A DNA stretch of 64,000 nucleotides from Pedobacter sp. (GTDB lineage: Bacteria > Bacteroidota > Bacteroidia > Sphingobacteriales > Sphingobacteriaceae), in NCBI GenBank assembly GCA_025351765.1, contig JANXVH010000172.1, forward strand, positions 1 to 64,000, read 5' to 3'. The first letter of the stretch is position 1, and the number at the start of each line of letters is the position of its first letter. The notes below the pieces were generated by a model that was not told the DNA's origin, searched no databases, and saw nothing but the letters and a program-made list of their open reading frames with translations. Of this stretch, positions 29,114 through 50,385 are shown one piece after another. Position numbers and translations under genes: made by a program.

Positions 29114-32100
29114 TTAACTGAATCGGGCTTTTGCTGAGATTCTATATTTCAAAAGACAGAAATAAATAATAAACTCCTGTTCGCGTTGCCGTTCTGAAAA
29201 CAAGCGGTTTAAATGCATATGGATTAGATCGGCGGCGAGCTGCATCCGCCGATCAACTTTACCCTCACTAACTTGACCGAAAACGTTATTCACAAAGCTT
29301 TTGAAAGCTGCTACTTTTTTTTGCATCCTAAGCCTTTTAAAATAAGTCTTGTCAGCTATAAGGCGATTAAGCTCCTGTCTCAAGCTTCTATATTTGGTGT
29401 CCAGATCAATTTTGAGAGTCTGATCTTTTCCGAATTCATTAAAAAACGAGTCAACCACCCTCCTGGTGAAAGCTATCGCATCGTCCTCTTTATTGAAAAT
29501 GGCATTGATAATCAGATGAACCGTCAAAAAACCAAAGCTATAGACACTCATAACTTCAGGTTTCGTGCTGTATTTTCTTAAAAACAAAAGCGTAAGCAGG
29601 CTACTTGAACAAAAGAATTTTTCAACTGCCAAAATCGATTCCGCACCATATCTTTCGAGTTCGCGATTATAACTATCAGCGTGATATTCTTTGATCACCT
29701 GGTATTGCAGTTGGGAAGATAAGGCAGATTTTAGTTTTTTTAGAATTGCCCCCAGATCACTGTCCTTTAAAAGCAACCGTAGTCGTATATGATGCGCAGA
29801 ATCCCTATATCTTACAAAAAACCAGGTTTGAATGCTTTCCTTGTTTCTACCATTTATAAAAGGAAGTATTTTGGTTAGCAGCATCATATTTGCATTCTGT
29901 GGGGAGCAATATATTTTAAGATATAGCCACTTACTTCCAAGCGAAAAACTCCTTTTCCTGACTTTAGGTCGAATTTTCTGCATGTTGCTTGCAGCCTGAT
30001 ATACCTTGTCTTTGTTTACAAGGAAACCTATGAACTGTGTGATCACTGGTTTACCTTCCGAAGCTACCATGGAATCGACGATAAATTCCTGAATCAATAA
30101 CCGTTTTAATCCTTTAATCGATTGAAGAAAAAAGTGCTGTTCGGCTTCCTTACCAAGGTTAAATACCAATTGTTGGTCGTGCCTGGTTAACGCAATCCGT
30201 TCCGGAAGTTTGTATTTTTTTTTAAGTTCTATCAGCATTGATATGCATGACTTTTTTTCTTTTTGCTGTAGTGACTCCAGTTCATCTCCAGTTATGACCC
30301 ATTTAGCTAAAGTCAAAATTGTTTTTTTGAAGCATATTCTGGGGTAAAAGTTCATACCCGGAAAATAAGATTCCATATCTAAATTGAAATTTGTCTGTAT
30401 CCCCTGATATTGGAGGTCGCAAAGAAACCGAAATACAGCTAACTCGTTATTATTATGATTGTAAGCAGAAGTTAATCTTGGAATAACTATCTTTTTCAAA
30501 CGTTGTGATTCCAGGATCATTTTGCCATCATGAAAAGATAACCAAAGGTCATTTAATGGAATCTGTCTATTTTCCGGCAATTCAGAAACCGAATTTATAG
30601 GTATTTCATATCTATATACCGATGGCCTTTTATTGATGTTATCAACATGTGGATACGACAATAAGCTGATATCGGCGAAGACCACCCCGGAATTAACGGC
30701 CTCCTCCGTTTCGGCAATATCTGCCGCGATATCCCTGACCTGATCATTCAGGGCAGCAAACCTACCTATCAGTGAGGTCCCAGTAACCCCTCCAAGGCTT
30801 TCAATATAGATTTCGTTATCAAGCATTCTGAAAATCACAGGTAACGACGGAGGCAGGTTAGGGCTTATTTTATCTGTGAAAATTTCAAAGTCCGCCGAGT
30901 CCAGGTTGATTGGCCTATAACGGTCAACGCCCTCGTATCCCAACCATTTGTTTAATAAAATTCGATGTGTCTCCGACCAACTGATAGTCCTTTCAGGATT
31001 TTCCCCATTCGGAAATTTGATATCTGTTAACAATTCCTGACCACGCAACAATTCCGGGCGGCCACCGTATCCAATTCCGGTTTCAGGATCCAGCACAATT
31101 AATAGAGGAACTTTCTGACGATCATATCTTTTAAGAAATTCCCGCTGAAATATTGCGATTCCGGGTGGACCCGAAGTATTGCACAATTTTACCAGGAAAT
31201 TGATGCCTTCGTATAATTGTAATTGAAATTTTCGTCCTAACTTATTACGAATGACATCCCGGAACGAATTGGCATAATAGAATGTCTTTATATCGGAGAT
31301 ATCAAAACCGGGAAAATGCCCCGAAATTTCCCGCAAAACATAATCCAACTGCGGGACATCCCCGTATTCAGCCTTTTCGAGGCGCTTAGTCAACTCCTTA
31401 AGGAAATCCTTGGTAGTAGGCATAACGGCCGGCTGGAAATTTACCAGGCGTTTTAAAAAGTCTGCCCCTATCATGTTAATGCCCTGCTCGGGTTTTATAA
31501 CCTGGGCACTGCGCAGGAATTCAAAATACTCCGTTGCCTGATCCTCATGGCAGGATGTAACACTGACGATAAACTTCCATATTTGTCTACCCTGCATTAA
31601 CGACCCTTCAAATTCTTCCATAAGGCCAGATGTCAATTTATTTGCTTCAATTGATTCAAGCGTAAATAATGGCGCAATGCCGGCATCGTCGTTGCCAGTC
31701 CAGATATACCGATATTCGCGTCCAACTTTGTAAATAGTGGGGTTTAAGCGGTATTTTTGTTCATAAATCAGTTCATCTCCTACAACCTTTGCAATTCCCG
31801 CAATGACCTCCTGATCAGGTTTTATACTGATCTGAATTAGGTTTTTACTGACAAGGTCGATCTCGGTAACATCACTCCACTCCACAACGGAATAAGAAGA
31901 GAACGCACCAAATGGCGTTGGGCGGAATGACATCCGGTTATAGTACTTATTGAGTGTCAGCTTTTCTTTGTCATTCAACTCGCCCCATTTAAAATCTTTT
32001 CTTGAAAGTAATCGGTAAAAAGAAGGATTTGCTAAATACACTGCATACCTGAAGTAGGTATCAGTCAATATTAGCTCAAGGGAATCCAAATTATAGTCAA

Positions 32101-32167
32101 TATAGCTATATACTGGATTTCTGGCTATTGCTCGGGCCGAAAACTGTAGCGGTAAAAATTCATCCAT
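29114..32167 (-). CDS. LanB-type lantibiotic dehydratase with C-terminal thiopeptide-type domain
   Basis: 1017 aa; RMSFRPTPFGAFSSYSVVEW, WLYLKIYCSPQNANMMLLTKILPFINGRNKESIQTWFFVRYRDSAHHIRLRLL. Confidence 0.85.
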   Translation of the reverse strand: MDEFLPLQFSARAIARNPVYSYIDYNLDSLELILTDTYFRYAVYLANPSFYRLLSRKDFKWGELNDKEKLTLNKYYNRMSFRPTPFGAFSSYSVVEWSDVTEIDLVSKNLIQISIKPDQEVIAGIAKVVGDELIYEQKYRLNPTIYKVGREYRYIWTGNDDAGIAPLFTLESIEANKLTSGLMEEFEGSLMQGRQIWKFIVSVTSCHEDQATEYFEFLRSAQVIKPEQGINMIGADFLKRLVNFQPAVMPTTKDFLKELTKRLEKAEYGDVPQLDYVLREISGHFPGFDISDIKTFYYANSFRDVIRNKLGRKFQLQLYEGINFLVKLCNTSGPPGIAIFQREFLKRYDRQKVPLLIVLDPETGIGYGGRPELLRGQELLTDIKFPNGENPERTISWSETHRILLNKWLGYEGVDRYRPINLDSADFEIFTDKISPNLPPSLPVIFRMLDNEIYIESLGGVTGTSLIGRFAALNDQVRDIAADIAETEEAVNSGVVFADISLLSYPHVDNINKRPSVYRYEIPINSVSELPENRQIPLNDLWLSFHDGKMILESQRLKKIVIPRLTSAYNHNNNELAVFRFLCDLQYQGIQTNFNLDMESYFPGMNFYPRICFKKTILTLAKWVITGDELESLQQKEKKSCISMLIELKKKYKLPERIALTRHDQQLVFNLGKEAEQHFFLQSIKGLKRLLIQEFIVDSMVASEGKPVITQFIGFLVNKDKVYQAASNMQKIRPKVRKRSFSLGSKWLYLKIYCSPQNANMMLLTKILPFINGRNKESIQTWFFVRYRDSAHHIRLRLLLKDSDLGAILKKLKSALSSQLQYQVIKEYHADSYNRELERYGAESILAVEKFFCSSSLLTLLFLRKYSTKPEVMSVYSFGFLTVHLIINAIFNKEDDAIAFTRRVVDSFFNEFGKDQTLKIDLDTKYRSLRQELNRLIADKTYFKRLRMQKKVAAFKSFVNNVFGQVSEGKVDRRMQLAADLIHMHLNRLFSERQREQEFIIYFCLLKYRISAKARFS

Positions 32168-41357: not shown

Positions 41358-41858
41358 TTAAAAAGCTCTTGTACCATAACCCTTGCTAATATTCAGATCA
41401 CGAAGTTTGTTGAAAAGGCCTACCATGGTACCATTTTCCATAATCCATTCCATTATGATCTGAAGCATTTCGTCGGCATCAGTATTGTAGGTCATCCTAC
41501 CATCCCCGCCGCGAGTGCCGTCTTTCCTGATTCTTTTCCCTCGGGTCAGATAGGTGTTCTTTTCTTCATAAATGAAATCTCGCGCGGCTTTATTCGAAGG
41601 TCCTTTAGGTAAATGCGCACGTAGTAACCTATTAATTCCTTTGTAATAAAGGTCAAATTTCTTCTCAGGATCATCAATATTACTGAGGGCCGTTTGAAGA
41701 ATTTCTCTTTGTCGTTCCAGGTCGCCTGTGGGTGAAATAATTAACTGCTCGCCTTTGACCTGATCAGAGGCAGCCAGGATATTTTGCTTGAGTTGTTCGT
41801 CTGCTAATTCTTTTTCTGTTTTTTTTCGCTGATGTGGTTTGTTCTCTTCTTCGGCCAT
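41358..41858 (-). CDS. Hypothetical partner of the ImmA/IrrE protein
   Basis: 166 aa, charged; 5 nt downstream of the ImmA/IrrE gene. Confidence 0.65.
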   Translation of the reverse strand: MAEEENKPHQRKKTEKELADEQLKQNILAASDQVKGEQLIISPTGDLERQREILQTALSNIDDPEKKFDLYYKGINRLLRAHLPKGPSNKAARDFIYEEKNTYLTRGKRIRKDGTRGGDGRMTYNTDADEMLQIIMEWIMENGTMVGLFNKLRDLNISKGYGTRAF

Positions 41859-41863
41859 GGTAA

Positions 41864-43075
41864 TTAAATATTAAAAATGTTTTCCTTTAAGTAGTTTACA
41901 GTATCTTCAATACGTTCCTTATCAAAAGGATCGATATTGATATCGTTTAAGGCCAGCTTAACGTCGGCTTCAGTGTGTTTGTATTTTGCCCAGAAGCTGC
42001 CTTTTCCTGCGGCATCCATATCCCAACAATAAAAATTATATATCATGGAAGGATGGATCTGGTGCTCCCTTGCAAAGTTGGCCACCACCAAAGGGCTGTC
42101 GATATATTTGTAAATAAACCTGGACCGCTCAGCAGGTAAAAAGTAATCACGGGCAAACTCATCAGCTTTATCTTCCTGAAGCAAAAAGAGATCGGCTTCA
42201 CCGGTTAAATGAAAAACATTACGTTCGATTTCATCAAAATCGAAAATTACGTGGTGCAATTCATGCAGCAAGGCGAACCATATAGTTGCGTATCGTTTAT
42301 TAAGATCCGTCAGAACAATACAAGGTTTACTGTTAATGACAAAGGTTGCCCCTCTGACCTGCGTAGTTTGTAAATGCGGTTGATAGATTACGCTAACTCC
42401 TATATTATACAACGCCTGGGTGACTGTCCGAAGCCCGGTTGTCACGTTCATGCTATAGGGTTTGATCTTAGCAATAAGCTCTATCAGTTTCGTCTTATCA
42501 TACGAATTAGAATTTTTCAGGCAATCAAAATGCGCATAAGCGGACCTTACCCAAAATTCGCGCATCAGACCACTTTCACTTTTCTTTGTTTTGCTAAATG
42601 CAGGAATGATTTGTTTGTTGGAATATTGAAAAATGGATTTTAGTCCGAAATAAGTAACAATACGTTTTTCTATTTGATCAAAATCCGTTTTAGTTGTCAA
42701 AAAACCTGATTTCGCAAGGTTTTTGATGTCAAACGTCGACAGGATGTAAGATTTCTTTTTCGCATCTTCCAATTCACCTACCATTTCCTGTGGCATATCA
42801 TTAAGGAATAATTTTAATAACGCGTCCATTTGCAGCCCTAGGAATTGCCCAAGCTTCAATAAATTAATTACATCCACTCGTTTGGCTGAACCATCCAATA
42901 TGCCTTCCAGTGTGCGTTTCTGCATATTCAGCATTTTTTCTGCCTGGTTAATGGTGATGCCGTGCCGTGCAAGCCTAGCATCAAAAATTTCCTTAATCGA
43001 ATTGGTTTCACCTTCCCACACGTCAACCGGGGAAAGCATTTTGTAGAATTCGTTCAGAAACTGATTTTCATCCAT
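41864..43075 (-). CDS. HTH plus ImmA/IrrE metallopeptidase-domain protein
   Basis: HGITINQAEKMLNMQKRTLEGILDG; LLHELHHVIFDFDEIERN...EDKADEFARDYFLP. Confidence 0.85.
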   Translation of the reverse strand: MDENQFLNEFYKMLSPVDVWEGETNSIKEIFDARLARHGITINQAEKMLNMQKRTLEGILDGSAKRVDVINLLKLGQFLGLQMDALLKLFLNDMPQEMVGELEDAKKKSYILSTFDIKNLAKSGFLTTKTDFDQIEKRIVTYFGLKSIFQYSNKQIIPAFSKTKKSESGLMREFWVRSAYAHFDCLKNSNSYDKTKLIELIAKIKPYSMNVTTGLRTVTQALYNIGVSVIYQPHLQTTQVRGATFVINSKPCIVLTDLNKRYATIWFALLHELHHVIFDFDEIERNVFHLTGEADLFLLQEDKADEFARDYFLPAERSRFIYKYIDSPLVVANFAREHQIHPSMIYNFYCWDMDAAGKGSFWAKYKHTEADVKLALNDINIDPFDKERIEDTVNYLKENIFNI

Positions 43076-43155: not shown

Positions 43156-44850
43156 ATGCCTGCTTTTCCAGTTGCCGAGCCAGATGCCCACCACGATTAC
43201 GCGCACAGTGTGGCATTGGAGAGAGATATACATATTTCTGAAGTTACTCAGCGCGGGCGAAAAGGTTATAAGTGTATAGGTTGCCAGCGCGAGATGCAAG
43301 CCGTATTACCAAAAGTCCAAAATTATAGACCCTATTTCCGGCACGACGCAAAATTTATCAAACCCGGCGATAAATGCACTTTTAAAGATGAGGATTACAG
43401 GCGTAAACTTGCCGCCACGACACTGGAGCTAAATAAAGAGATCAAGGTTCCTCCGGTTTACAAATATCCCCCTAAAGGTGTGGCCGGATTGGCGCTGTTT
43501 CTTTTGCCGGGAACTGTCATTGCCGCGGGCCGTGTTGAAAAAAATAAATATTTTTTCGAAGATCATAATGGCAATATAAAGGCGGATTTTAGTTATCATG
43601 GGCCACAGGAAGAATTGTTATTTAAGGCCGATATAGTTTTTTATGACGAAAACGATGAGCCTATACTATTTATCCAATTAGGTAAAAGAAAAAAATTAAC
43701 TGTAAATGAATTTGCCGGATTAAAACGGCTACGTGTTAATACGATCAAGTTAACAATACCAAAGGAATCTGCTGAGGCAATAGAAATTTCTCAAAAAAAG
43801 GGCGACCGCGCCAAATGGTTATACCACGATGATGAACAACAAATCGCTTATTTTTCAGTACCCACCGATCTTGGAGATGGAATACCTGCAATTGATGGAG
43901 ACCCGGATAGACTTTCTGAAGAAAGTTACGACTGCCGAAAGGTACAAGTTAACAATCTCATACGAGCACTTGGCCGATGTTTGGAATCAGAACCGTACCG
44001 CACGGCAGAACGAGCAGTTGTTACAGCTATCGGAAGAACTGAACTCGCAATCAAGCGAGTTGGAGAACGACGGGCTGTTTTTGAAGAACAATATCGAAAC
44101 GACGCTGAAACAACATATCGCGGAGAGTTGGACGAAATTGAAGCAAGACGAGTTCAATTTAGAACTACAAAAGCAGGACTTAACGGACGTTATCAACGCC
44201 TGGACGAAAGATATCAATCAACAAAACAGCGACTTAGAGAAGAGAAAGCGTTACTTGATGCAAACATCCGGCAGGAAGAAATCGCGCTTGGCGGAACAGG
44301 AAAAACAATTGGGCAATTACAAGACGATGCTGACCGAGAGCACAAAGCAGCACGAGATCGATTGGATGAACAATTTGGAAGAGAACTCGAATCAATTGGA
44401 GCGGAGCAAGAACGAGTGGAACGAGCTATTGCAATTGAAAGAGCAGCTATCGAGCGATTACGCGCAGATATTACAAATGCACCAGCAGAACTTATCAGAA
44501 AGCAACACAGCCAGCGAAGCTATCATGAGCGACTTGAAGCAGCAGAAAAAGAAATTATCGGTGGACTTGAAAAAGAACGAGATGGAAGACAAGAACGTAT
44601 TGATGGCGCACGAAGTGATCTTGCAGCGCGATTTGACGAGTTACGAAGACAAACTGCTCTTGCCGCTGAAAACAAAGATACTGAAGGAGGAACCGGCTTG
44701 TCCCTACGACTTAAAGCACTTAGTCCTGCAAGAGGATATGTTTTGGCTGTCGAGAATGGCAAAGCAGATAGCCGAAGACTCCGTAAAGCGAAGGATTTTA
44801 TTGGAACAGCAGCTTTCCAATCTTGGCTATTACAACGTCAGCGTGGATGA
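43156..44850 (+). CDS. CoiA-like putative nuclease with coiled-coil C-terminus (frame 1)
   Basis: N-terminus CIGCQREMQAV...NYRPYFRHDAKF, LLFKADIVFYDENDEPILFIQLGKRKK; then ESYDCRKVQVNNLIRALGRCLESEPYR and an Arg/Glu-rich coiled coil. Shares about 1 kb with a second same-strand frame. Confidence 0.7.
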   Translation: MPAFPVAEPDAHHDYAHSVALERDIHISEVTQRGRKGYKCIGCQREMQAVLPKVQNYRPYFRHDAKFIKPGDKCTFKDEDYRRKLAATTLELNKEIKVPPVYKYPPKGVAGLALFLLPGTVIAAGRVEKNKYFFEDHNGNIKADFSYHGPQEELLFKADIVFYDENDEPILFIQLGKRKKLTVNEFAGLKRLRVNTIKLTIPKESAEAIEISQKKGDRAKWLYHDDEQQIAYFSVPTDLGDGIPAIDGDPDRLSEESYDCRKVQVNNLIRALGRCLESEPYRTAERAVVTAIGRTELAIKRVGERRAVFEEQYRNDAETTYRGELDEIEARRVQFRTTKAGLNGRYQRLDERYQSTKQRLREEKALLDANIRQEEIALGGTGKTIGQLQDDADREHKAARDRLDEQFGRELESIGAEQERVERAIAIERAAIERLRADITNAPAELIRKQHSQRSYHERLEAAEKEIIGGLEKERDGRQERIDGARSDLAARFDELRRQTALAAENKDTEGGTGLSLRLKALSPARGYVLAVENGKADSRRLRKAKDFIGTAAFQSWLLQRQRG

Positions 44851-44875
44851 ATTAATTGAAGTGGCAAATAAGTAA
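43829..44875 (+). CDS. Overlapping coiled-coil ORF (frame 2, 348 aa)
   Basis: Open 348 codons inside the previous gene; Leu/Lys/Glu/Gln coiled coil with natural C-terminus EEPACPYDLKHLVLQEDMFWLSRMAKQIAEDSVKRRILLEQQLSNLGYYNVSVDELIEVANK; next ATG is 6 nt after its stop. Confidence 0.5.
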   Translation: MMNNKSLIFQYPPILEMEYLQLMETRIDFLKKVTTAERYKLTISYEHLADVWNQNRTARQNEQLLQLSEELNSQSSELENDGLFLKNNIETTLKQHIAESWTKLKQDEFNLELQKQDLTDVINAWTKDINQQNSDLEKRKRYLMQTSGRKKSRLAEQEKQLGNYKTMLTESTKQHEIDWMNNLEENSNQLERSKNEWNELLQLKEQLSSDYAQILQMHQQNLSESNTASEAIMSDLKQQKKKLSVDLKKNEMEDKNVLMAHEVILQRDLTSYEDKLLLPLKTKILKEEPACPYDLKHLVLQEDMFWLSRMAKQIAEDSVKRRILLEQQLSNLGYYNVSVDELIEVANK

Positions 44876-44881
44876 TTAACG

Positions 44882-45334
44882 ATGCTAACTACAAAAATAC
44901 TAGGTAAGGGTAATCATCAGGTTTTATATAGAACCAACCCGAGTTATATCCTCCATGTCGGTCACCATACCGGACGTATTCGTTGTTATCGTTCACATTG
45001 CTTATATTTTCAGCAACATGATGTATATCGCTATTGATAAAACACATCTTACGATTTCGAATTGTACCTGTATAAACACGGTACAGCCCGAAAAATCGGT
45101 TTACACATTAAACTGATGGGTTTTAAACGGGCTGGAATCAAGGCGTTCAATTCTTACGGTAATCTATTTGTGTATTTTAACGACTACAACTACACATTGG
45201 GCAGCAGTCCGGAACATATTTGGATCACCAAGTTGTATGATCAAATGCTGAGCATGGACGAAATCAACATGATAGCCGCCAAATTTAGAGATGAGATCCT
45301 CGAACGAATCAACATCCAGTTAGAGGATCTTTAG
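44882..45334 (+). pseudogene. Small gene pair or gene interrupted by in-frame TGA-TAA
   Basis: Frame from ATG 44882 reads MLTTKILGKGNHQVLYRTNPSYILHVGHHTGRIRCYRSHCLYFQQHDVYRY, TGA TAA (45035-45040), then NTSYDFELYLYKHGTARKIGLHIKLMGFKRAG... to 45334. Confidence 0.4.
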
Positions 45335-48300
45335 CTCGCTCCGGAAATTTTATCATAAAGGCGGATGGCACTTTCCTGCGATGCCATCTTAACTGAATTG
45401 GCTTCGAATTGCTTGGCATTGTTTTCCATCAAGTAAGTTAAGCCCTGTATGAAATTTTCAGGAATGGGTTGTCCTTTTTTGGCCATTTCCTGTCGTTTTT
45501 TCAGCCATTTTTCAACTTTCTTTCGGACTTTGGGGAAGTTATCACGGTAAAGGGCAATATGCTGCAGTATTGTACCACTGATGCTTCGCAAATCGCAAAA
45601 CGTGTCCGCATAAAAAGATGGCTGTTGGGCCAATTCGTATAACTCGAGGGCATAACGGGTAAACTTGGGTTTATTTAAACGGTACAAGGGGTTTGATGGA
45701 GACGAATCATCAGGGGAATAACCTTTTGCTCGCAGCACCGCGACATAGTCCTCCACAGCGGCTTTATGTTGCAGCTTGACCAGGAACCTGATGAACGTCA
45801 GCTTTTCTTCCGGATTGCTTTCCTCAGCCGCTTTTTGCAACAACGTTTTCTTAATTGTTGGACTGCCGGCGGTGATGAACTTTTCAATAAGTGCTTGTAA
45901 AAAATAGGACGTCGATGTTTCCAGCAATGGTCGCAGCATTTCCAGGTTGCCCCCAAGGCGCAAATAAGCATTTAGCAACTGGTAGTCATCCTTTACAGTG
46001 CCATCGAGCAGGTAAACCCGAAATAATGGTACTGCTCTTTTCACATCGTGTGTTTCCATGAACTTTACATAATCGTCTAATAGCTTCTGTCCCGGAACTT
46101 GCAGGGTCATGTTCGTCAGAATTGCCTCTGCCGTTGTTTCAAAACCAATTACCGACTGCACAAACGGAATGATTTCAATCAACTGGTCATCCCATCTGAA
46201 TGTGTTTAACATGTCCTCGTACAGCGCGTTCGGATATTTCCGAATATCCAGGTAACGTATAAAAAAGGAAAAAATTTCCGACGTCTTATCCATAATCCAC
46301 CCCCCGTAAGGAGTCCAGCTTATCGCTTCCCTGAAATTTACAGTTGTTGCTGCCTGGTCGCACCAGGCAAAGATCGGCTGCCATTGATCTGTTGTAAGTT
46401 TGGCCTGCGGGTGATGCAATAAATAATCATGCAACCGGTTAGGCAATCGCAGTTCGAAATCTGTTAGAACTTCCCGGGTGACATCTTGCAGGCTAACCGT
46501 GTGATTTTCGCCACGCAGATCGATAATATCCCTTGCAATTCCGGAAAAGTCCGTGCTCCAGAAATCTGCTACAATATCATTGTACCGATCATCAGTAGTC
46601 AACGTATCTTTACCGAAGGCCTGAAAGATCATTTCAATTTCGCTTAGCATTACAGACTGGTCAAATATCGCTGCCAAGTCCCTGGCTTGAACCTCTTCCA
46701 TCCCCGGCATCTGGCGCTGAGGCCGCCGGGGGATCTCGTTCAAGGAAAAGGCAACTCTTATATAATCAGCGTTGACATTGTTTTGCAGATCCATTTGTTG
46801 ATGGATATCCTCAATGGTTTGCTGATCTATCCGACCGGCCTCCAGTTCCAGCACCAAAAAGTCGACGAATACAGTTGTTCCTAATATTGCCACGGTTCGC
46901 ACGAGTGAATAATCCCGGTATCTACGCGTAACAATCATTTCTTTCACGACCAGATCCAATTGCCCGGCAGCACTGAAATAGCTTAGAAAAGCCTTATTAA
47001 AATTAGACTTCTGTAGTATTTCGGAATGATGTGCTATAAAGGTTTGCCGGATCGCCTTCGATAATGATTCATCTTCGGTATATGCTTTAGCTTTTTCGAG
47101 GGTTGGTTCGTAAACTTTACTGAAGTAAACAGAATAAGCGAACCTGGAGAAATCGGTTGGGCCGGAGTTAAAAAGTTCAGTCAATCCAGCCGCAGTATGG
47201 ACGCGTTGCAGCGCATTGGACACTTCAGTAAATTCATTGCTCAGACGATTGCTTCCCTGTCTCTTGTTGAGCCGAGGCATTTCATCAGCTTGGAGGAACC
47301 GTGCTTGTTCCAGTAAGTAGCCAACGACCAAATCCTGGTGACCGGTTATCCATATCAGGGTAAAAAGCTGGTAGCGCACCCAGGTGTCTTCCGACGTTTT
47401 AAATTTCTTGAAGACTTTGAGAAAAGCCGCCGCAGAAATATCGAAAAGACCGCCAAAGCCAGCAAGCGCTGAGGCATGTAACTCGGCTTCATTTCCTTCA
47501 AGGATGCACTCGTAACGTAGTCTGAAGAGTTTCCGGTAGTTTGGATAAGCTTTTAGATGATAAAAATTTGCAATAGTTAACGCATTCATTTTGGATATGC
47601 TATCACCTGAATCCAGTTCCGCCAACAAGTAATCAAAAATCTGCTCACTTTCAGAAAAGCTGGCCAGATCTTCATACCGATAGATCTGCCGGTTAATTCT
47701 GCGTCTTTCGTTTTTAAATTGTACAAAAATGCCGGAAAACAGGTCGAACTTTAACTGGTCAGGCATTTTCTTGGAGTCAAGCGCGATCAACAGGTCTTTG
47801 TTTTCTTTCGCTAGCCAGTTAAATATCGTATTTATCAAAGCGGCTTTTTCAGGCAGGATATCGATCACAAATGCGAGGGTATTTACCCAGCTGGGTTTTA
47901 TCCTGTCAAAATCCGGTTCTACCCCAATAATTTCTTTAATCTTCTTGAATTTTAATTGCGCCAATACTTTCGCCGCGAGGTATTCCTGCGCATTATTATG
48001 GGTAAATTTGAACACTTTACTTTTATCGTCAGTGCCCTGGAAGAGGTTGCCTGCCTTAAGTACCTTTCTGTAATCCTTTTTATCCGGTAATATTAAATGA
48101 AGATCGCTGCTGCTCACTTGGTTGGTACCTTTTGCTTCCATGACAAAGGCAGCCTTGGTAAAAAGTTTAAATAAGGCTAACTCGTAAGGTGCTCGCTCTT
48201 CCGGCTTCAGTTTACCCACATCCATGCGGATAAGGTCAAATATTTCGGATTCAAACAATTTGCCTTTACTGTCCGCGATCTGGTGACCGTTACGGAATTG

Positions 48301-49443
48301 CTGCACCAGCTTCACCAGATAATAGGGAGCATGCAGCAAATCACTGATCTTTTTGCGGTTGACTTCCAGTAAGAAATCTTTCTTGTTTTGCCCAAGGTGT
48401 TTATCCAAGTATTTTTCAATTTCTTGGTTTGCAAGCGGATCAAGCTTATAGGAGGAAAAATCTGTTAAGGTATTGTAAGCGGAGTTTTCGGAATCTGTCG
48501 TGTAAAAATTGGTACGGCAGGAAACGATGATACGGCTCTTCGGATAACCTTCTGCGAATTGAAGGATCGCGTCAATCGTTTCCTTCCGGTTCTTGCCCCG
48601 TATTTCGTCCAACCCGTCCAGCAAGACATAAAGCTGATCCGAAGGGATTCGATCGATCTGCGGTATTCGCTTATGGATAGGGCCGTTGAAATGGTGCCCG
48701 AAAATAATGCGGTGGGCATGGATAGAAGGCTTTTGAGATAATACATGTGCCAGCCTGATCAGTTCAGTCGATTTCCCGCTAAGACCCCAACCCAGCAACG
48801 CAATCCGGGTATGTTGCGTTAATACTTTTTCCAGCGTGTCATGATCTAACAGCAATTGTGCAATCGAATCGCCGCTGGAAGGGGTTACGGTTCGCAGGAG
48901 GTAACCATCGTAATCATCATTTTCAGGTTTTGGGGGTGGTGGTGCCTGCTGTTTGCGTACCTTTTTCAGCCATTTATAAAGCAATTTGATTTCCTGCGGC
49001 TGGGCCTCATCATTCATACTGCCCCGGCGAAGGTAAACGCGGTTAGCCATCAGCGTATTCGACTGATTTACCGGAACAGACAGATATTTTTCATGGGGAT
49101 GTACCGGGATTTCAATAATACCGTATTTTAATTCCCGGTAAGTGTAAATATAACTTTTGAACTTCGGTGCCGGGCTAATTTTACTTCTGGCTTTTTCCTG
49201 CAAAGCGGCATCGTCCATGATTTCACTTATACCGTGATAGACTTTATCGCCATTTGGCAGCAGTTTAATCCCGAAAATCAGGTGGGCGGTTTGCTCCCGA
49301 ATCGTGTTAGACATGGAAATCAGGTCTTTCAAAAAACCAGCGTCACCTTTGCCAGAATTACTGAAATCATAAAATGTCTTTTTGAAATCTAAAATTTCAG
49401 TTTCAGGATTGTTTAGTAATTCTGCAAATAAGGCGTCATTCAT
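45331..49443 (-). CDS. AlbA_2/Schlafen-like plus NACHT NTPase with HEAT-like repeats (bacterial NLR-like)
   Basis: N-terminal ETEILDFKKTFYDFSNSGKGDAGFLKDLISMSNT; P-loop LLGWGLSGKSTEL; Walker B YVLLDGLDEIRG; long helical C-terminus. Confidence 0.8.
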   Translation of the reverse strand: MNDALFAELLNNPETEILDFKKTFYDFSNSGKGDAGFLKDLISMSNTIREQTAHLIFGIKLLPNGDKVYHGISEIMDDAALQEKARSKISPAPKFKSYIYTYRELKYGIIEIPVHPHEKYLSVPVNQSNTLMANRVYLRRGSMNDEAQPQEIKLLYKWLKKVRKQQAPPPPKPENDDYDGYLLRTVTPSSGDSIAQLLLDHDTLEKVLTQHTRIALLGWGLSGKSTELIRLAHVLSQKPSIHAHRIIFGHHFNGPIHKRIPQIDRIPSDQLYVLLDGLDEIRGKNRKETIDAILQFAEGYPKSRIIVSCRTNFYTTDSENSAYNTLTDFSSYKLDPLANQEIEKYLDKHLGQNKKDFLLEVNRKKISDLLHAPYYLVKLVQQFRNGHQIADSKGKLFESEIFDLIRMDVGKLKPEERAPYELALFKLFTKAAFVMEAKGTNQVSSSDLHLILPDKKDYRKVLKAGNLFQGTDDKSKVFKFTHNNAQEYLAAKVLAQLKFKKIKEIIGVEPDFDRIKPSWVNTLAFVIDILPEKAALINTIFNWLAKENKDLLIALDSKKMPDQLKFDLFSGIFVQFKNERRRINRQIYRYEDLASFSESEQIFDYLLAELDSGDSISKMNALTIANFYHLKAYPNYRKLFRLRYECILEGNEAELHASALAGFGGLFDISAAAFLKVFKKFKTSEDTWVRYQLFTLIWITGHQDLVVGYLLEQARFLQADEMPRLNKRQGSNRLSNEFTEVSNALQRVHTAAGLTELFNSGPTDFSRFAYSVYFSKVYEPTLEKAKAYTEDESLSKAIRQTFIAHHSEILQKSNFNKAFLSYFSAAGQLDLVVKEMIVTRRYRDYSLVRTVAILGTTVFVDFLVLELEAGRIDQQTIEDIHQQMDLQNNVNADYIRVAFSLNEIPRRPQRQMPGMEEVQARDLAAIFDQSVMLSEIEMIFQAFGKDTLTTDDRYNDIVADFWSTDFSGIARDIIDLRGENHTVSLQDVTREVLTDFELRLPNRLHDYLLHHPQAKLTTDQWQPIFAWCDQAATTVNFREAISWTPYGGWIMDKTSEIFSFFIRYLDIRKYPNALYEDMLNTFRWDDQLIEIIPFVQSVIGFETTAEAILTNMTLQVPGQKLLDDYVKFMETHDVKRAVPLFRVYLLDGTVKDDYQLLNAYLRLGGNLEMLRPLLETSTSYFLQALIEKFITAGSPTIKKTLLQKAAEESNPEEKLTFIRFLVKLQHKAAVEDYVAVLRAKGYSPDDSSPSNPLYRLNKPKFTRYALELYELAQQPSFYADTFCDLRSISGTILQHIALYRDNFPKVRKKVEKWLKKRQEMAKKGQPIPENFIQGLTYLMENNAKQFEANSVKMASQESAIRLYDKISGAS

Positions 49444-49482
49444 CGGTTAACTTAGGGTTGTAGGTTCTACAAAATTGTAAAA

Positions 49483-50385
49483 TTAAATGTTACTGTGATT
49501 GGGTTTACAAGCAATTTTTACATTGAATTGCTTGTAAACGCACTTTAGCGTAATTTGAATATTTCCAAGGTCCGGCGAATCATGTTGCATCGCAAAAGCA
49601 AACTGGTCCAGTTTTTCAATGGTAGAACTCATCGCACTGAGATGGAACCAGTTATTGGATCCGGAAAAGAATACATTATTCAGGTCGATTGGGTGTATCT
49701 CGTTTTTGTAAAAACATATGGCCGGCCAAAGAAAATCAAAATCAAAGGGTTCAATTTCATCAGGCAGCCAATCCTCATCATAATCACTTTGCTGGTAGGC
49801 CATCATCAGGAATACCAGCTCTTCCTTACTAAGTTTCCCCGGATCTACTGTACTTGCCAACCTTGCCAGCGTCTTAATTTCCGGCAGCGTATGCTGGAAT
49901 AACCATTGCCGAACCAGGCTTTTCACCCATGCCACCGTATCGTCGGCGAAGTATTTGATGATCAAATCCGGGAATGCCAGGAGATTATGTTTGATCATTT
50001 TGCCGTCAATGACATGAATTTTGAAATCAACTTTTTCCTGTGTTTTATTCAGATAATCCCTGGTGTCTTTGGTGGGATGGGTATTCGTCATCAGGACAAA
50101 GTGTTTTACCCGGTGCGCCGTCGCCCAGCCGATTTTACTGACAAGTTCAGTCATAGGTATACCGCCGGTGTAAAATTTGCATTCAAAAAACCACTTTTCA
50201 GTATAGGCCCCCAGCAATGGATTGACTACTGTAGCCAATGCTTCAATGTCCTTACCGCCATCGGCACTGCCCTGATGCCAGATCATATCGTGAAACTGGT
50301 ACTTCATCAATAGATCGAAGCATAATTCTTCAAATCTGCGCCAGTCAATACGATCAAAGTCAATGTCGGTCTCTTCAAAGTTCAT
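49483..50385 (-). CDS. Mrr-like restriction endonuclease
   Basis: DWRRFEELCFDLLMKYQFHDMIWHQGSADGGKDIEALA...KWFFECKFYTGG (D..ExK) and HFVLMTNTHPTKDTRDYL. Confidence 0.8.
   Translation of the reverse strand: MNFEETDIDFDRIDWRRFEELCFDLLMKYQFHDMIWHQGSADGGKDIEALATVVNPLLGAYTEKWFFECKFYTGGIPMTELVSKIGWATAHRVKHFVLMTNTHPTKDTRDYLNKTQEKVDFKIHVIDGKMIKHNLLAFPDLIIKYFADDTVAWVKSLVRQWLFQHTLPEIKTLARLASTVDPGKLSKEELVFLMMAYQQSDYDEDWLPDEIEPFDFDFLWPAICFYKNEIHPIDLNNVFFSGSNNWFHLSAMSSTIEKLDQFAFAMQHDSPDLGNIQITLKCVYKQFNVKIACKPNHSNI

Follow-up and report, generated by a model that had tools for sequence, protein, structure and literature searches.

A putative CoiA-like gene of Bacteroidota very probably shares about 1 kb of same-strand DNA with a second coiled-coil gene in the +1 frame

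Introduction

Long same-direction overlaps between bacterial genes are generally put down to annotation errors (PMC2478687). The survey behind this view accepted none of 715 same-direction overlaps longer than 60 bp as real; its longest verified overlap, between holD and rimI, measures 56 bp (PMC2478687). The overlapping genes described in E. coli O157:H7 (pop/ompA, laoB and others) are antisense and shorter, and have been described as young or restricted (PMC7103648, PMC5810103, PMC9927249). An earlier long same-strand bacterial case was not found in the open-licence literature, where the later bacterial examples are antisense. Nucleases with coiled coils are known from the CoCoNuT defence systems, for which overlapping reading frames at the operon start are mentioned (PMC11090510).

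Here we describe a locus in a contig of Pedobacter sp. The window, i.e. the whole stretch of DNA that was analysed, comprises 64,000 nucleotides. From comparison with related loci we conclude with high confidence that about 1 kb of it carries two real overlapping genes, here called A and B, on the same strand and in frames offset by +1.

Results

Two open frames in the window

An earlier note on this DNA had reported two long open frames on one strand and offered three readings: real overlapping genes, a programmed +1 frameshift, or one gene with an indel and a chance-open shadow frame. Both frames are indeed open, at 43156-44850 (564 aa) and at 43829-44875 (348 aa), the latter at an offset of +1. 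The features of the locus and its surroundings are as follows (coordinates in the window, strand, description):

43156..44850, +: gene A, 564 aa, CoiA-like, putative PD-(D/E)xK-type head and coiled-coil tail
43156..43828, +: single-coding head of A; contains a CxxC...H...C motif and a predicted alpha/beta core of endonuclease-like type
43829..44875, +: gene B, 348 aa, in the frame offset by +1 from A; helical domain at the N-terminus, then a very long coiled-coil helix and further helices at the C-terminus
43829..43834, +: start codon(s) of B, ATGATG, within the codons by which A encodes WLYHDDE
43829..44847, +: dual-coding overlap, 1,019 nt, both frames constrained in every 25-codon window
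43774..44059, +: 286 nt without substitution relative to Mucilaginibacter pineti, from ahead of the B start into the N-terminal part of B, which is conserved
44773..44826, +: motif conserved at the C-terminus of A, RRLRKAKDFIGTAAFQSW, from comparison with relatives
44654..44872, +: part of B conserved towards its C-terminus (..LEQQLSNLGYYNVSVDELIEVANK), from comparison with relatives
44665..44675 (approximate), +: counterpart of the single-base deletion in M. pineti; intact in the window
41358-43075, -: divergent two-gene unit (403 aa and 166 aa) immediately upstream of A
45331-50385, -: 1370-aa Schlafen AlbA_2 protein and Mrr-type nuclease gene, a defence-like block downstream of A/B
29114-32167, -: 1017-aa ORF, lantibiotic dehydratase-like by eye, beside a two-component pair

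Codon counts bear out the shift in third-position usage that the note had seen in A. In the head the third position is A 0.30, C 0.19, G 0.19 and T 0.32, in the overlap A 0.48, C 0.14, G 0.10 and T 0.28. Arginine in the overlap is mostly encoded by CGA (23 of 47 codons) and AGA (13 of 47), compared to one CGA and three AGA among the 13 arginine codons of the head. T-ending codons are scarce in B (11%), and an ATG lies 6 nt past its stop, both again as described before. The likeness of A to its family had been followed to about 44.0 kb. It holds that far, but 44.0 kb is not its limit: the C-terminus RRLRKAKDFIGTAAFQSW aligns with RRLRQAKQEFDSGAWKNW and similar C-termini in relatives, so that likeness reaches the final residues of A.

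Related loci carry the same arrangement

We collected 19 related loci from genomes and plasmids of several Bacteroidota families, giving 20 with the window. Five Bacteroidota plasmid loci were obtained by tblastn with A against plasmids (about 29–33% identity), M. pineti (L003), the nearest named match to the window, by a genome scan (97% identity), and 13 further loci from about 1,700 genomes that were searched with profiles. Their G+C content ranges from 30 to 54%. Over the full length, A of the aligned loci shares 23–32% identity with A of the window, M. pineti again reaching 97%. A B-like +1 frame is present in all 20 loci, i.e. in all 14 genomes whose head match is strong, in the five plasmids and in M. 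pineti. Sixteen loci are intact, three carry a one-base deletion and one (L042) is truncated in both frames. Where both genes are intact, B has 280–369 codons and the overlap, where measured, spans about 0.8–1.05 kb.

With B as the tblastn query only the same loci were found (with identities as low as 29%, at 4e-26), and no stand-alone B was found in the plasmids or in 13 carrier genomes; one marginal coiled-coil match to B was seen at 7e-5 in genome G637. A search for viral or phage carriers returned none. Twelve more distant relatives of the head, proteobacterial as well as bacteroidotal, lack a comparable +1 frame, which mildly favors A as the older of the two genes. Trees of the A head and of the N-terminal part of B agree in well-supported groups. 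As to which frame is older, codon usage points both ways: the tail of A is nearer to local usage in most loci of low G+C, and B is nearer in the G+C-richer loci. Public annotation of the Hymenobacter DG25B plasmid (L009, 3554-4600) contains B (WP_156126522.1) and omits A; that of the Fibrella and Spirosoma plasmids contains A and omits B.

Both frames are open and conserved beyond what the other frame forces

We held the protein of one frame fixed and permuted synonymous codons within the overlap in 2,000 trials. Permutations preserving A of the window left a mean of 9.1 stops in the B frame (23.8 stops with the codon usage of the A head), those preserving B a mean of 11.8 stops in A, and in neither direction was one of the 2,000 open, so that the openness exceeds chance. 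In all intact loci the outcome was alike: A-preserving permutations had a mean of 5–11 B-frame stops per roughly 310 codons and were never open in 2,000, B-preserving ones had 7–18 stops in A and none was open.

Conservation of the proteins was assessed with profiles, each locus being scored against one built from all the others and compared to 200 permutations. B of the window reached 206 bits (permutation mean 70, maximum 108) and the tail of A 199.6 bits (mean 54.6, maximum 90.5). In 15 of 15 loci the true B scored above the best of 200 permutations, and the reverse test with the tail of A pointed in the same direction. Support from Hymenobacter L009 was weak, B scoring 37 bits there against a permutation maximum of 27. 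The first reading of the note, real overlapping genes, thus finds strong support in distant relatives, where both proteins are conserved beyond what the other frame forces. A chance shadow frame was rejected on the openness and profile-score permutations. Heptad periodicity beyond that imposed by the other frame was suggestive in most loci; exceptions are L039 and L041, in which B has ranks of 84 and 91 out of 100.

Constraint sets in at the start of B and acts on both frames

Constraint was followed along the overlap in thirteen windows of 25 codons. All of them were constrained in both frames, with Z values of 5.8–17.3 for B and 5.8–18.5 for A. In the overlap the +1 frame had a mean Z of 7.9. 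Spill-over was seen in the +2 frame (mean Z 3.3), yet this frame contains 25–52 stops per locus. Frames without a proposed gene in the A head served as control and had a mean Z of 0.1; kinship of the loci therefore does not explain the signal, and inflation of the test by shared ancestry was rejected on these grounds. Between the final head window that was tested and the opening window of B, Z for the +1 frame jumps from -1.0 to +16.1, and constraint is at its highest over the first 25 codons of B, at Z 16–17.

The heads of A from the window and from M. pineti differ by 6.1%, with a nonsynonymous rate of 0.020 and a synonymous rate of 0.217. In the overlap, changes synonymous in A occur at a rate of only 0.068 where they would alter B. 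Lowest of all, at 0.024, is the rate of changes that affect both proteins, and no change creates a stop in B. In the other two close pairs stop-making changes in B are likewise rare. Doubly synonymous sites are the fastest in three of three close pairs, at modest counts. By these computations purifying selection acts on both frames in the close pairs. In the pair L038/L039 the heads differ by 7.6% and the overlap by 25%, a contrast that hints at exchange or rapid divergence of the tails.

Predicted proteins

The head of A shows a CxxC/H/C and a D..ExK-like pattern, the D..ExK residues being retained in most members. In A of the window the catalytic Glu of ExK is replaced by Gln (FIQL); other departures are Asp for Glu in L045, Asn for Asp in L008 and Leu for Glu in L046. 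Relatives of A match the Pfam models CoiA_N (PF25164), DUF7828 (PF25165) and DUF7830 (PF25169) with best values of 2.1e-8 to 4.9e-8, CoiA_N being matched in 7 of 15 family members (best 4.9e-8). A of the window has no significant Pfam match. The head of A is predicted with fair to good confidence (block pLDDT mostly 70–92) as an alpha/beta core followed by long helices, and the predicted alpha/beta order fits an endonuclease-like core. Searches of the PDB by sequence gave no matches, and a fold search found none at E<=0.001 for A and none significant for B. The designation as nuclease therefore leans on the Pfam matches of the relatives and on our reading of the motifs. We infer that A may be a CoiA-like, PD-(D/E)xK-type nuclease head on an Arg/Glu/Ala-rich coiled-coil tail.

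B is rich in Leu, Lys and Gln. It is predicted to begin with a small helical domain, to continue as a single helix of about 200 residues and to end in further helices (mean pLDDT 86.5 for the member of L036). Single members of A and B gave marginal matches to Exonuc_VII_L (E 0.05). Against the PADLOC models neither A nor B had a match outside coiled-coil similarity; weak matches of the coiled-coil type were obtained to LmuB, ZorA, JetC and DruB (E 3e-6 to 1e-2). We regard coiled-coil matches of A and B to SMC, LmuB, ZorA and JetC models as generic.

The start of B

In 17 of the 19 loci examined an ATG occupies the equivalent place directly past the W-x-Y motif of A, that of L045 one codon later. 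The two exceptions are L009, with GTG, and L014, whose nearest ATG comes six codons downstream. The codons of A that supply this ATG differ among loci (AAT-G, CAT-G, TAT-G, GAT-G). In six loci (L015 and L038–L042) a stop in the +1 frame is located five codons upstream of the ATG, leaving 12 nt of room for a shift. The start region of B shows less structure than the gene as a whole in 17 of 19 loci. We searched for a Bacteroidota promoter motif directly upstream of the B start and found none, nor did a translation signal emerge there.

Given the onset of constraint at the ATG of B and the +1 stops upstream in six loci, internal initiation is preferred over frameshifting. B would start at the conserved internal ATG on the message of A and so yield a separate protein, and we consider translation by internal initiation quite likely.

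Alternative explanations for the second frame

In the second reading of the note, programmed +1 ribosomal frameshifting would give the head of A two alternative tails, its own and that of B. The B frame lies at +1 throughout, as such a mechanism would have it, and three loci contain fusions of the A head to the B tail, by which such a chimera appears to be at least tolerated. These fusions stem from one-base deletions, each at a different place, in M. pineti (L003), Spirosoma KNUC1025 (L007) and G1220 (L046), which join the A head to the B tail and shorten B. Against frameshifting stand the sharp beginning of B constraint at the ATG with its highest values over the first 25 codons, the retention of the start codon at an equivalent place and the 12 nt left behind the +1 stops of the six loci. 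The onset of constraint and these stops give no sign of a shift site ahead of the conserved stretch of B, and inspection by eye around the B start revealed no shared slippery sequence. As the main mode of B synthesis we hold frameshifting to be improbable. The fused loci also bear on the third reading, in which a single gene carries an indel or sequencing error and the long shadow frame is open by chance, since M. pineti, at 97% identity, has a single uninterrupted frame from A head to B tail. Uninterrupted homologs of this kind, which the note had named as the mark of a sequence error in the window, thus do occur, but in these three loci, while sixteen others keep two frames; many of these are of about 30% G+C, and both frames run intact to separate conserved ends. 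Openness and conservation lie far outside the expectation from permutations, and in the fused loci the original tail of A past the deletion point is open to its end. In our comparison it is the fused frame of M. pineti that appears derived, by a one-base deletion, the window being intact; the third reading fails for the window and is hardly credible. A last possibility is that A alone is functional and the openness of B a by-product of its coiled-coil composition, as R/E/A-rich codons avoid +1 stops. Composition does help, with merely 5–11 stops per roughly 310 permuted codons, but no permutation of an intact locus was open, amino acid conservation of B far exceeds that of the permutations and synonymous change in A is suppressed, which makes this explanation very improbable. 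The deletions in the three loci may be recent losses, phase variation or read errors.

Genomic neighborhood

Neighbors of A/B vary by locus but are repeatedly defense genes, in settings that include plasmids. Among them are Eco57I type IIG RM, GmrSD, TIR, reverse transcriptase (RT), AIPR, RloB/AAA ATPase, ThiF, Abi_2 and Mrr. The divergent pair upstream of A in the window is also found beside A/B in M. pineti and G1220 (74–97% and 67–94% identity). Its 403-aa protein has an HExxH-type motif and is ImmA/IrrE-like by eye, with no Pfam match; the pair is possibly a regulator of A/B. In M. pineti a 287-aa ORF (L003, 5732-6595) follows the A/B pair and has no counterpart after B in the window, where just a short ORF follows from the ATG at 44882.

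Discussion

Because the neighbors resemble defense islands and B is found only together with A, we propose that a nuclease-like protein and its coiled-coil partner act in defense. A role against foreign DNA is about an even prospect. A and B would act jointly, most likely as partner coiled coils of one complex, a partnership that we consider plausible at slightly less than even chances. A might cut foreign DNA, or perhaps merely bind it in the Gln-bearing copy of the window, and B might hold or regulate A. As the two coils share their DNA, an in-frame insertion or deletion would lengthen or shorten both equally and their lengths would stay matched. The full picture is tentative: A and B would form a probably defensive machine of two proteins, the nuclease stalk and the partner coil being encoded by the same ~1 kb in two frames, so that both coils are forced to equal length as they evolve and single-base deletions swap the C-termini.

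A different division of labor would be a nuclease/inhibitor or toxin/antitoxin-like pair, in which B neutralizes or regulates A and its embedding blocks inheritance of A without B. The presence of B only with A, the co-inheritance guaranteed by the overlap and the defense-island and plasmid setting all agree with such a pair. B is however a long coiled coil and not a small antitoxin-like fold, and it has been kept although A of the window is probably without the catalytic Glu. The sequence does not separate this pair from the partner-subunit model, and we treat it as a serious alternative, albeit on the unlikely side.

Whether partners or opponents, A and B present a deep comparative case of two proteins sharing one DNA sequence. 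As the loci have diverged, dual coding can be examined by comparing them and not only by experiment. Gene callers overlook one member of the pair, which is A in Hymenobacter and B in the Fibrella and Spirosoma plasmids that have been annotated. The locus also points to an undescribed protein pair in defense islands.

Comparison with known systems

With CoiA-like proteins the relatives of A share the N-terminal models and the CxxC/H/C and D..ExK-like pattern. A differs by its long coiled-coil tail and the second gene embedded there, an arrangement that more distant CoiA-like relatives do not have. In exonuclease VII (XseA/XseB) a second, helical subunit binds the long coiled-coil stalk of the nuclease. 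The likeness of A/B to it concerns a possible way of working only, given that neither protein has a significant fold or family match. CoCoNuTs and A/B have in common a nuclease, extensive coiled coils and defense settings, whereas A/B are without a McrB-like GTPase and the CoCoNuT paper describes no 1-kb dual-coding region (PMC11090510). Like the E. coli O157:H7 cases, A/B place a second coding frame inside a known gene; unlike these, they lie on the same strand over about 1 kb and are conserved across several Bacteroidota families. holD/rimI also combines a same-strand overlap with conservation of both proteins, but that overlap is at most 56 bp and terminal, compared to about 1 kb in A/B (PMC2478687). 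In length, orientation and depth of conservation, A/B lie far beyond these overlapping-gene cases.
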